Positions 7,012 through 31,695 of a stretch of 45,824 nt of DNA are shown piece after piece (the first letter of the stretch is position 1; each line of letters begins with the position of its first letter). The stretch lies in the IMG/VR virus record IMGVR_UViG_3300021368_001939, positions 1 to 45,824 of that record. One strand, 5' to 3'. Both the position numbers and the translations under genes were made by a program. The notes beneath the pieces were generated by a model. That model ran no database searches. It was not told the DNA's origin and worked only from the letters and a program-made list of their open reading frames with translations. This stretch comes from a virus.

Positions 7012-7575
7012 ATGACACTTGAAATGATTCCTCTCACTCCATCTGATCTTCAGGGACCAAAAAGAATTTCACCTTTAGTAGATTGTAAATTAAAACTTTT
7101 TTTGTCTTGTATTAATGATGTTTTACCTTTAAATTCCGAAAGTATTTCTGCATTATCAGATGATGAATTTTCTCTTGTGGATGAAGAAATTTGGTTATTG
7201 TATTCAACACTTAAAGTTAAAAAATCTTATTTTGAGTCTTTAGATTTGCCTGAGTATCATGATGATTATGAACAACTTGAAAAAATTATAAGAAAAATGG
7301 TTATTGCAAAAAGATTTATCAAAGAGATTGATAGAGAAAAATACTTTCGTCTTTTTAAAAGGTATGATCTACTTTCCGACAAATATACGAATAGAGAAGA
7401 ACTTAAATTTTTTATTCGTTCTATTAAATCTGAAATTAATGATTTGTTCACTAGTAAATCTCCTAGAATTTTTTCTAAAATGTGTGAATATATGCTTGAT
7501 AATTATGGTGATGAAGCATTGAATAAAATGACAACATCCGTCATTTTTGACAAATTTGAGTGTGGGGTTGACTAA
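7012..7575 (+). CDS. Hypothetical helical protein
   Basis: The ATG at 7012 is chosen because the longer frame (GTG 6979) begins upstream of, and runs through, the promoter -10. The 187-residue product is mostly alpha-helical and rich in Lys, Glu, Leu and Phe, with no recognisable motif, signal or membrane segment. It forms its own transcription unit between two strong promoters. No function can be assigned. Confidence 0.65.
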   Translation: MTLEMIPLTPSDLQGPKRISPLVDCKLKLFLSCINDVLPLNSESISALSDDEFSLVDEEIWLLYSTLKVKKSYFESLDLPEYHDDYEQLEKIIRKMVIAKRFIKEIDREKYFRLFKRYDLLSDKYTNREELKFFIRSIKSEINDLFTSKSPRIFSKMCEYMLDNYGDEALNKMTTSVIFDKFECGVD

Positions 7576-7596
7576 ATACAGTATAGGGTCTATAAT
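7568..7596 (+). promoter_or_regulatory. Sigma70 promoter TTGACT-17-TATAAT in a hairpin
   Basis: TTGACT (7568-7573) and TATAAT (7591-7596) are separated by 17 nt. Initiation is expected near 7603, just before the riboswitch-like RNA. The -10 lies within an inverted repeat (7583-7592 with 7596-7604, one bulged G). A CTAAATA late box (7572-7578) overlaps the -35. Confidence 0.8.
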
Positions 7597-7604
7597 AGAC
7601 CTAT

Positions 7605-7646
7605 CGTTCATCAGAGGAAACTCTGACGCAAGTAAGTCGCGGAACG
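7605..7646 (+). ncRNA. Glutamine-riboswitch-like leader RNA (glnA/Downstream-peptide type)
   Basis: P1 pairs CGTTC (7605-7609) with GAACG (7642-7646). After one A, P2 pairs TCAGAG (7611-7616) with CTCTGA (7621-7626) around a GAAA tetraloop. The next segment, CGCAAGTAAG, resembles the conserved CGGAAGTAGG of the glnA RNA class. The element starts about where the promoter should initiate. The last G of P1 is the first base of the Shine-Dalgarno GGAG (7646-7649) of the gene at 7657, so P1 formation could affect translation. The class assignment is from remembered consensus, not a covariance search. Confidence 0.65.
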
Positions 7647-7656
7647 GAGAATTGGA

Positions 7657-8250
7657 ATGATTTACTACACTTACTACTCTTACGAACCCTTTGGGAGAGG
7701 CTACATTGGTAGTAGAGGATGTGAGTGTAATTCAGTGGAGGAGGATAATTATTTTGGTTCCTACGGAGACAAAACATTTAATCCTTCCTGTAAAATCATT
7801 CTTACCGAACATACTACGAGAGAGGAAGCAGTTGAAGCAGAAGTAAAACTCCATAAGTTTTACCAAGTTGATACTAATCCTCACTTTGCTAATAAAGCAA
7901 GGCAAACATCTGTTTCATTCTCTTACTCTGCTCCAAAAGGAGAGAGATCTGGAGAAAAAAATCCTTGTTTTGGTAAAGTTCGTGTTACTGACGGTAAAAA
8001 TGAACGAGTAGTTTATGAGAATGACATTCCTTCTGGTTGGTGGAAAGGTAGAAGTCGTAATCCACAAGAATACACTGGTACTAAATCCATAAAATATAAC
8101 ACCATAAAATATAACAGAGGTAAAATGTATGATGACTTTCTAAAAGATATAAGTAAAGATGAATCTATTTTATCTTTACCTATTAGAAAACTTGCAGAAG
8201 TTTATCAAACATCTCATACTTCTATTCGTCGCTGGAAAAAATCACTTTAA
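7657..8250 (+). CDS. GIY-YIG family homing endonuclease
   Basis: The N-terminus YYTYYSYEP followed by GRGYIGSRGC (residues 3-22) matches the GIY-YIG nuclease core, with acidic and Arg residues downstream. The middle carries SGEKNPCFGKV, a NUMOD3-like DNA-binding motif. The C-terminus (RKLAEVYQTSHTSIRRWKKSL starts at ~residue 176; core LAEVYQTSHTSIRRWK) is a helix-turn-helix. This is a free-standing homing endonuclease of 197 residues. GGAG at 7646-7649 gives 7-nt spacing to the ATG. It has its own promoter and a riboswitch-like leader, unusual for a selfish gene. Confidence 0.85.
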   Translation: MIYYTYYSYEPFGRGYIGSRGCECNSVEEDNYFGSYGDKTFNPSCKIILTEHTTREEAVEAEVKLHKFYQVDTNPHFANKARQTSVSFSYSAPKGERSGEKNPCFGKVRVTDGKNERVVYENDIPSGWWKGRSRNPQEYTGTKSIKYNTIKYNRGKMYDDFLKDISKDESILSLPIRKLAEVYQTSHTSIRRWKKSL

Positions 8251-8251
8251 T

Positions 8252-8430
8252 CGTTCATCCCATGTTAGAACTATTATTCTACACAACTCTCACCTGTGCT
8301 CAAACTGATGCTATCATACTGCGAATGCAGACAAATGAAAATATTAGTAATGAGTTTAGGGTTGAGTTAGTTGAGACAATGAAGGAATCAAATCCTGAAT
8401 GTTATTGGGACGCAAACGACTAAAGGAACG
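8252..8430 (+). ncRNA. Second glutamine-riboswitch-like RNA with an ORF inside its P2 loop
   Basis: CGTTC (8252-8256) can pair with GAACG (8426-8430) as P1; TCCC (8258-8261) with GGGA (8407-8410) as P2. GGGA is followed by CGCAAACGACTAAA, parallel to CGCAAGTAAGTCGCG in the copy at 7605. The P2 loop (8262-8406) contains nearly all of a 53-codon ORF whose ATG starts at the base after P2. The pairing is seen; function and ligand are inference. Confidence 0.45.
8262..8423 (+). CDS. Small putative secreted/periplasmic protein
   Basis: The 53-residue product starts MLELLFYTTLTCAQTD, a short hydrophobic leader, and ends PECYWDAND. Two cysteines (about positions 12 and 47) could form a disulfide after export. 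I recall similar small proteins ending WDAND in cyanophages. There is no Shine-Dalgarno: CGTTCATCCC abuts the ATG. The gene is embedded in a potential RNA structure, and its last codons (GAC GCA AAC GAC TAA) form part of the RNA consensus-like core. Confidence 0.65.
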   Translation: MLELLFYTTLTCAQTDAIILRMQTNENISNEFRVELVETMKESNPECYWDAND

Positions 8431-8464
8431 GGCCTAAGAATCCAACTACTTTAGGAGTAAAATC

Positions 8465-8608
8465 ATGTCTACTATCACTTATCGTGGTGTTAAGTACAAC
8501 CCAGAAGCATACAAAGCTGCTGTGTTGGCAGAGCAAACTGCAACTCGTAACCACAATCTCATGTATCGTGGTATCAAAATCGAACGCAAGTTTGCATCAC
8601 AAAGTTGA
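8465..8608 (+). CDS. DUF4278-like small protein
   Basis: The 47-residue protein has two YRG motifs (TYRGVKY near the start, MYRGIKI near the end), the hallmark of the cyanobacterial DUF4278 family of unknown function. A strong TAGGAG lies 6 nt before the ATG. It follows the riboswitch-like element at 8252-8430 and would be its downstream gene. It ends just before a terminator at 8632. The family link is from motif recall. Confidence 0.7.
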   Translation: MSTITYRGVKYNPEAYKAAVLAEQTATRNHNLMYRGIKIERKFASQS

Positions 8609-8631
8609 CGATCATCGCACTTAACTTTCCT

Positions 8632-8656
8632 GAGGGTTGCAAGACCCTCTTTTTTT
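8632..8656 (+). terminator. Rho-independent terminator
   Basis: GAGGGTT pairs with GACCCTC around a GCAA tetraloop, followed by seven T. It ends the unit containing the DUF4278-like gene. Confidence 0.9.
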
Positions 8657-8666
8657 ATGCTATAAT
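8637..8666 (+). promoter_or_regulatory. Promoter nested in terminator, extended -10
   Basis: TATAAT (8661-8666) is preceded by TGC (extended -10). The TTGCAA at the loop (8637-8642) is 18 nt upstream and could act as a weak -35. Initiation near 8673 would serve the ATG at 8688. Confidence 0.65.
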
Positions 8667-8687
8667 GGTATCGAAGTAATATAGTGT

Positions 8688-8849
8688 ATGGAAAAAGAAA
8701 GAGTTAATTTGATTATTCGTAATTTGGAACTTCTTTTGGATTCTCTAAAGGCAGAAGTAAATTCTGATAGAGATGATAAGGTAGACTATAATCCATATAG
8801 TGAATATATTGAAGATTATGATGAAGTCTATGATGAGAAAAATGATTGA
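8688..8849 (+). CDS. Small acidic hypothetical protein
   Basis: The 53-residue protein starts MEKERVNLIIRNLELLLDSL (an amphipathic helix) and continues into a highly acidic, Tyr/Asp-rich tail (YIEDYDEVYDEKND). It is the first gene after the terminator-promoter at 8632-8666 and overlaps the next gene by 20 nt. It has no recognised family. Confidence 0.6.
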   Translation: MEKERVNLIIRNLELLLDSLKAEVNSDRDDKVDYNPYSEYIEDYDEVYDEKND

Positions 8850-9012
8850 AACAAAAAAAGCAAAAGAACTTGTAAAACTGCTTGAAAGACTGATCGAGAA
8901 AGATTACCTCTACAGTGAAGAAAGCATCAGAGAAATGAAATCACAACTGCGTTCGGTAAAACAGCAGATTGTTGATATAGATAAAAAGAACTCAAAGGGA
9001 TTTGGAAAATGA
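8830..9012 (+). CDS. Small coiled-coil hypothetical protein
   Basis: The 60-residue, lysine-rich protein is helical (KKAKELVKLLERLIEKDYLY, then REMKSQLRSVKQQIVDIDKK) and ends NSKGFGK. The start is uncertain: ATG 8830, 8833 and 8842 are all in frame, and the last overlaps the previous stop. It overlaps thyX by 4 nt, so it is probably translated together with it. Conserved small proteins of this type are common before thyX-like genes in cyanophages (recollection). Confidence 0.65.
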   Translation: MMRKMIETKKAKELVKLLERLIEKDYLYSEESIREMKSQLRSVKQQIVDIDKKNSKGFGK

Positions 9013-31041: not shown

Positions 31042-31353
31042 TGCCTTCCTGTAATCAAAGACAGAAACACTTATACCGAACAAAAAGCAAGAGGTTATTC
31101 CAATAAATGGAAAGCACTTCAATACAAAGGTGGTAAGTGTCAAACTTGTGGTGAAGATAGACCCGCAACTCTATGCTTTCATCACAGAGATCCATCAGAA
31201 AAATCATTTGCTCTTGATGGGAGAACCTTTGCAAATAGAAAGTGGGACTTTGTTAAGGAGGAAGTTGATAAATGTGACCTTCTTTGCCACAACTGCCATA
31301 ATATGATATACTATGGGGACAGTTGGGAAGAATTCCTAAACGAGCAGGCTTAG
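31042..31353 (+). pseudogene. HNH endonuclease lacking a start codon
   Basis: The open frame encodes GGKCQTCGEDRPATLCFHHR and later CDLLCHNCHN, a small HNH domain with CxxC/CxxC zinc ligands and the HH catalytic motif. It is related to the HNH gene at 41910. Between the in-frame stop at 31039-31041 and the conserved part there is no ATG, GTG or TTG. It is therefore a decayed copy or uses an unusual start such as ATC 31054. The stop codon lies inside tRNA-Met. Confidence 0.65.
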
Positions 31354-31416
31354 CACTTCGGTAATTGCGATCGTCTCATAAACGATAAAAAACTGGTTCG
31401 ACTCCAGTAGCCTGTA
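31344..31416 (+). tRNA. tRNA-Met (CAT)
   Basis: Acceptor GCAGGCT pairs with AGCCTGT (one G-T). The D stem is GCA/TGC, the anticodon stem is ATCGT/ACGAT around CTCATAA (anticodon CAT), and the T arm is ACTGG-TTCGACT-CCAGT. The discriminator is A and no CCA is encoded. It could be an elongator Met tRNA or, if lysidine-modified, Ile2. Its first 10 nt overlap the HNH remnant's end. Confidence 0.88.
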
Positions 31417-31620: not shown

Positions 31621-31695
31621 GCCCGTGTAGTCCAATTGGCAGTAGACACGAAACTTAAAATTTCGACAGTATCGGTTCGAGTCCGATCACGGGTA
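31621..31695 (+). tRNA. tRNA-Leu (TAA) with short variable loop
   Basis: Acceptor GCCCGTG pairs with CACGGGT. The D stem is GTC/GAC, the anticodon stem is CGAAA/TTTCG around CTTAAAA (anticodon TAA, reads UUA), and the T arm is ATCGG-TTCGAGT-CCGAT. The discriminator is A. The variable region is only 5 nt (ACAGT), whereas bacterial Leu tRNAs normally carry a long variable arm. UUA is a frequent codon in this AT-rich genome. Confidence 0.85.

Follow-up and report, generated by a model that had tools for sequence, protein, structure and literature searches.

Can a whole protein-coding gene reside in the loop of a ligand-binding RNA? The question arose from a stretch of viral DNA of 45,824 nt (IMG/VR record IMGVR_UViG_3300021368_001939; the window), in which the first-pass annotation had proposed a glutamine-riboswitch-like RNA with a 53-codon ORF filling its P2 loop. 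All letters named there are present: CGTTC at 8252-8256 and GAACG at 8426-8430, an ORF of 53 codons (8262-8423) whose ATG directly adjoins CCC at 8259-8261, and GGG at 8407-8409, which leaves a P2 loop of 145 nt. In 80 loci selected by protein similarity (50 distinct flanks), conservation of these letters around the ORF, here ORF2, is above chance expectation. We found that the likeness to a glutamine riboswitch and the ORF in the P2 loop hold, but that the single aptamer has to be replaced by a composite of two domain-swapped ones. The observation is thus real but covers roughly the 3' half of a larger composite element, which starts at 7605, about 650 nt further upstream in the window. A twin glutamine riboswitch with nested ORFs is the best explanation of the whole, to which we assign a probability of about 0.7.

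At the gathering score, Rfam recognized nothing in the window but two tRNAs (tRNA genes are located at 31344-31416 and 31621-31695), and only chance matches were obtained in 7900-8900, including the 8252-8430 region for which the first-pass annotation had suggested this comparison. Positions 7603-7650 scored 24.7 bits against glnA (RF01739, gathering cut-off 35 bits) and 21.4 bits against glutamine-II (Downstream-peptide, RF01704, cut-off 33 bits), both under the cut-off, which pointed to a second, complete-looking aptamer half just upstream, with an endonuclease gene between the halves. By score the element falls short of membership in glutamine-II (21.4 and 26.8 bits). None of the sequences scored here has a half that reaches the gathering cut-off, and no glutamine-riboswitch match over the cut-off was present in the 11 genomes scanned. 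Phage glutamine riboswitches are already known (PMC9964418; PMC9004378), and the Rfam-annotated glnA riboswitch of isolate S-CREM1 (44.0 bits over 99 nt, PMC9964418) corresponds to the whole twin element, the halves of which gave 33.5 and 20.4 bits when rescored here against glnA.

The strands of the element follow each other in the order a-P2A-core1-c-a'-b-P2B-core2-c'-b' (Table 1). Strand a pairs with b' to form the outer P1, c with c' to form a shared P3, and a' with b to form the inner P1, termed P4. All helices of the composite are nested, and there is no downstream helix enclosing the 3' strand. The outer unit A keeps the glutamine-I order and architecture, with a-b' as P1 (CGUUC/GAACG), a hairpin P2 and a three-way junction with P3, and the inner unit B is circularly permuted. 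Core1 (ACGCAAGTA) comprises the ligand-pocket G, the long-range C and an E-loop-like AGTA. Judged by sequence comparison, this fold, in which two glutamine-aptamer units swap domains within one chain, is almost certainly correct. As P2B has to close about 145 nt with 3-4 bp, it may form only in untranslated mRNA. A small hairpin after strand b' (within 8427-8464 of the window, and in homologues), with a covarying G-run and C-run, would compete for the long-range G and is a possible expression platform. G-type lineages (L259-L427, variant scans) have a longer P3 of 8 positions with two conserved A-C mismatches, the orientation of which can flip (AGCCGACG/CGCCGACT, GGACGACG/CGCCGCCC).

Table 1. 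Features of the composite element and its transcription unit, in window coordinates.
Feature	Position	Strand	Evidence or remark
Promoter-like TTGACT-17-TATAAT	7568..7596	+	11/12 matches
Strand a (CGTTC), 5' strand of outer P1	7605..7609	+	pairs with 8426-8430; CGTTT with AAACG in 16 loci; 100% paired
P2A hairpin CAGAG-GAAA-CTCTG	7612..7625	+	compensatory changes; ORF1 possible in loop in other phages
Core1, outer unit A: ACGCAAGTA	7626..7634	+	core1/b'-flank C-G or G-C covaries across halves
Strand c (AGTCG), shared P3	7635..7639	+	pairs with 8417-8421; AGTCG/CGACT, AATCG/CGATT, ATTCG/CGAAT, AATCT/AGATT
Strand a' (GAACG + long-range G), 3' strand of inner P1/P4	7642..7647	+	7642-7646 pairs with 8252-8256
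Insert with homing-endonuclease ORF (7657-8250), P4 loop	7650..8251	+	phrog_314 homing endonuclease, E 1.1e-8
Strand b (CGTTC), 5' strand of inner P1	8252..8256	+	pairs with 7642-7646; CGTT[C/G] 10 nt before ATG invariant in protein-selected loci
P2B 5' strand (CCC)	8259..8261	+	directly before ORF2 start; CCC/GGG vs CCT/AGG
ORF2, 53 aa, small two-cysteine protein in P2B loop	8262..8423	+	phrog_504, E 1.4e-30
P2B 3' strand (GGG)	8407..8409	+	inside Trp and Asp codons; CCC/GGG vs CCT/AGG
Core2, inner unit B: ACGCAAA, inside codons DAN	8410..8416	+	core2/a'-flank C-G or G-C covaries
Strand c' (CGACT), P3	8417..8421	+	overlaps last codon and stop of ORF2; covariation with c
Strand b' (GAACG + long-range G), 3' strand of outer P1	8426..8431	+	pairs with 7605-7609; covariation
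DUF4278-like gene, 47 aa, AGGAG ribosome site	8465..8608	+	PF14105, E 3.4e-5, 24.6 bits vs cut-off 25.3
Intrinsic terminator	8632..8656	+	closes the transcription unit

Pairings were counted in 228 instances, not de-duplicated, of which 143 are distinct. P1, P3 and P4 are paired in 100% of the distinct sequences, and equally so in a 49-row alignment of distinct sequences, with compensatory pairs in each helix. Among the 228 instances a'/b reads GAACG/CGTTC in 189 and CAACG/CGTTG in 39, with no mixed case. For a/b' we counted CGTTC/GAACG 210 times and CGTTT/AAACG 16 times, two more a strands being apparently misplaced. The forms of c/c' are AGTCG/CGACT (207), AATCG/CGATT (13), AATCT/AGATT (3), ATTCG/CGAAT (3) and the G-U intermediate AGTCG/CGATT (2). 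As many letters were prescribed by the instance finder, a fair test requires scans in which only one side is fixed: where position 2 of c is not G, a matching change in c' was found in 20/20 loci holding both halves, in three forms, and where position 1 of b' is not G, strand a is CGTTT in each of the 16 loci where it could be read. Along the ORF2 tree, a'/b switched state 18 times, and both sides change together in 7/7 independent supported-branch pairs. The distant pairs c/c' and a/b' nevertheless weigh more, as the neighbours a' and b could travel together by recombination. In the protein-similarity-selected loci (50 distinct flanks), neither CGTT[C/G]AT before the ATG nor AAGGAACG behind the stop codon varies, whereas sequence further out drifts; near the C-terminus, GAC-GCA is frozen at its wobble positions (80 loci). 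We consider an RNA structure to be strongly supported by these comparisons.

The P1 of the first-pass annotation did not survive the comparison of homologues: 8252-8256 and 8426-8430 are complementary in letters, but the former covaries with 7642-7646 and the latter with 7605-7609. Its P2 was supported, CCT pairing with AGG in other ORF families. That P1 belongs to a more general reading, a plain tandem of two conventional glutamine aptamers (a pairing with a' and b with b'), the second of which has the ORF in its P2 loop. The letters permit both readings in about 82% of loci, the glnA model matches each half separately (30.9 and 19.8 bits in locus L122), and tandem glnA RNAs have been reported (PMC2864571). 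Read as a tandem, however, P1 has 0 compensatory pairs and 13-14 mismatches in the 49-row alignment, P3 is left unexplained and stability drops by about 7 kcal/mol, the composite fold winning by 6.9-9.0 kcal/mol in each ORF-less example. Independent tandem aptamers are largely refuted by this covariation and appear highly improbable to us.

The ligand pocket leads to the same swapped topology. In the crystal structure of glutamine-II it consists of C1, G2, G18, C39, G40 and the long-range pair 19:41, with variable 5:36 and 4:37, and the glutamine-I pocket is nearly identical (PMC6698751). The element keeps these five letters and the complementarity of 19:41, and in the protein-selected loci pocket letters are invariant for the 5' part of unit B and the 3' strand of unit A. 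Variant scans at 19:41, which yielded the strongest evidence, showed that with G in both core1 and the a' flank, the b' flank is C in 120/120 loci and core2 is C in 119/120, and that with C in both, the b' flank is G in 54/54 and core2 is G in 51/54. Position 19:41 is complementary (C-G or G-C) in 170/174 loci of these scans, and only when core1 is combined with the b' flank and core2 with the a' flank; separate tandem aptamers would have G-G and C-C in 170 loci. Since only the swapped pairing satisfies this covariation, the domain-swapped topology is fixed at the pocket. In four loci of the scans core2 is A, which leaves the inner unit without the standard long-range pair; L383 and L419 are twin elements with core2 = A, and one of their pockets is possibly degenerate.

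Binding of L-glutamine by the element is predicted for each unit, and we regard it as quite probable. The same folded RNA could also have ceased to sense glutamine and serve constitutively, to protect the 5' end, stabilize the mRNA or bind a protein, with the ORFs tolerated, a reading that fits the scores under the Rfam cut-offs and the weak appearance of P2B with its 145-nt loop. We judge it unlikely, given that both units have retained the pocket letters, as well as the ligand-proximal pair, in a phage locus that evolves fast, that the DUF4278-like gene downstream matches the cellular glutamine riboswitches, and that the annotated riboswitch of S-CREM1 is the same element.

The family of ORF2, phrog_504, occurs in 318 phage records; in IMG/VR we found it in 167 stretches, from which 80 loci were kept. 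Coding by ORF2 is supported, with a median dN/dS of 0.17 (1108 pairs), and loop lengths vary mostly in threes. The P2A loop holds either a hairpin or ORF1 (65-75 codons) and the P2B loop either a hairpin or ORF2. Nested ORFs in P2 loops are about 50-70 codons long and start at the P2 strand, and the first base of CGTTC nearly always precedes the start codon by 10 nt. A phage lineage with a G-type core carries an ORF1 of 68-71 codons after TATAAT...CGTTCATCCT-ATG, which stops just before the core. In L095, L115, L122, L123 and the isolates ACG-2014f and S-CREM1, loop 2 is an ORF-less, tight hairpin; the twin elements of three of them lie near 211365 in ACG-2014f (KJ019066), at 1400-1481 in L122 and at 164232-164330 in S-CREM1. 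We rejected the idea that the core is coding sequence only, as ORF-less copies keep the core and different ORF families share it. The final codons of ORF2 had been thought to replace the conserved core, but GACGCAAACGACTAA is the core itself, with the ACGC of glutamine-II, together with one P3 strand. As translation runs through core2 and c', loop-2 ORF families of different kinds end in DAND or DAHD, and the ends shift exactly with c' or core2: c' CGAAT gives DANE, c' AGATT gives DAKD, and G in core2 gives DGND. DAND/DAHD-type residues are missing in ORFs that stop before the core (L126, L144). The nested proteins have a hydrophobic, signal-peptide-like N-terminus and two invariant cysteines about 32-36 residues apart, and an alpha hairpin is predicted for ORF2 (pLDDT 83). 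ORF2 subfamilies are clearly related (98.6%), the relation of ORF1 to them being weaker (81.8% for one group of ORF2 and 13.6% for the second); this kinship of the families suggests that the twin was born by duplication of an ORF-bearing aptamer.

Across loci the P4 loop contains either a few bases or an endonuclease gene. S-SKS1 represents the empty site, from which the window differs by a 602-nt insert between GGAACGGAG and CGTTCATCCC. In relatives without the endonuclease the halves are adjacent, in the order promoter, CGTTCATC-hairpin-GACGCAAGTAAGTCGCGGAACGGAG, few bases, CGTTCATCCC, ATG. The endonuclease ORF apparently uses the a' flank GGAG as ribosome site and stops just before strand b. 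Related inserts are present in S-B43, RN05-S and Sf-CH5, and the ORF2 behind the insert of S-B43 is of another family. In L011-L015 a second insertion comes just behind strand b', ahead of the downstream gene; it contains an HNH-like ORF (MRQCSKCSEYK...) and repeats parts of the module sequence (CGACTGAAGGAA, CGTTCATCCC). Variable loop contents (hairpin, several ORF families, endonuclease) in constant frames, and an endonuclease inserted at one exact point, would also be expected of a DNA-level recombination or homing site, that is, short conserved repeats where phages swap small ORF cassettes and homing endonucleases. Coordinated changes in strands about 200 nt apart, with G-U intermediates, and a pair covarying across the halves are, however, unexpected from DNA-level conservation, and the element lies right after a promoter and before the DUF4278-like gene, which makes such a site very improbable.

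The twin riboswitch appears to open a transcription unit. Of 156 distinct upstream sequences, 116 have a TATAAT-like -10 that precedes strand a by 7-9 nt, and transcription is expected to begin only a few nt from P1. The DUF4278-like gene that the first-pass annotation had placed after the ORF was borne out (Table 1), a protein with the YRG motif (DUF4278) being encoded by the next gene in 158/159 distinct loci. Glutamine riboswitches are activators of expression, and the genes they chiefly accompany are of the DUF4278 type (PMC6316151). The element occurs once per genome in 11/11 T4-like cyanophage records checked, and both halves are found together in all but three of 206 occurrences. A scan of 84,980 species yielded the pattern in four contigs only (L243-L246), labelled Saprospiraceae, Nonlabens and Euryarchaeota. 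A cellular origin was rejected on this count and on the phage-type arrangement of the two contigs read, L243 and L244. Given this arrangement, and the 188-kb length of the L244 contig, L243-L246 are probably phage contigs inside these assemblies. The element is spread among marine and probably also freshwater phages, the latter judged from lineage divergence and not from metadata.

We propose that the transcript, from about 7600 to 8656, opens with the composite riboswitch of two glutamine-aptamer units. With plentiful glutamine both pockets would be stabilized and the fold would lock, burying the ten bases before the nested start codons as well as the ends of the nested ORFs. At low glutamine ribosomes would enter the nested ORFs, and a ribosome finishing ORF2 would cover core2, c' and b' and keep the aptamer open. 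Folding and nested translation would therefore exclude each other, which we hold to be somewhat more probable than the contrary; a conflict of this kind had been foreseen for the single aptamer and is expected for the composite as well. Under high glutamine the nested ORFs would be closed and the DUF4278-like gene favoured, as in cellular ON switches. This direction of control is tentative, with chances slightly below even: in a simple calculation, freeing or sequestering b' made no difference to how accessible the ribosome site downstream is predicted to be (0.45 vs 0.40), so that the ON direction for the DUF4278-like gene is without computational support. The endonuclease gene in the P4 loop would be a passenger tolerated by the fold.

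Domain-swapped dimers are known from crystals and were thought to be absent in vivo (PMC7357161). A literature search, which covered few subscription papers, returned no description of a riboswitch whose domains are swapped within one molecule, nor of ORFs nested in the loops of one. The locus indicates that evolution has realized the domain-swapped dimer within one chain; the compensatory changes, being recurrent, open this swap to tests with short natural RNAs. It also shows protein-coding genes in riboswitch loops, the final residues of their products being dictated by RNA pairing, and a common phage locus would be tied to the nitrogen status of the host. We lean moderately towards this full picture, in which whole ORFs lie in the loops of a two-site, domain-swapped riboswitch, ligand-stabilized folding and translation of the nested ORFs are exclusive, and the core dictates the C-termini of unrelated proteins.

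Compared with known systems, the outer unit follows the order of glutamine-I (glnA, RF01739), CGUUCAUC-P2-GACG[G/C]AAGUA-P3-GAAGGAACG, with a DUF4278 gene downstream; unlike glutamine-I, the element holds a second, circularly permuted aptamer in its P3 and whole ORFs in its P2 loops, and its halves score under the Rfam cut-off. With glutamine-II (RF01704) it shares the pocket letters CGUUCA...CGC...GGAACGG, the C:G long-range pair, the variable 5:36 pair and the domain swap seen in the crystal dimer. It differs in having neither a P2-type helix around the 3' strand nor a pseudoknot, in a swap that is intramolecular and supported by evolution, and in peptides encoded inside the element and not only downstream. 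As in tandem riboswitches such as those for glycine, two aptamers for the same presumed ligand occupy one leader, but here the units exchange strands and share a helix. An ORF in a loop and an RNA fold that survives it are also combined in group I introns whose peripheral loop encodes a homing endonuclease. The present element, in contrast, is no ribozyme; its nested ORFs code in most cases for small two-cysteine proteins and are not removed by splicing.
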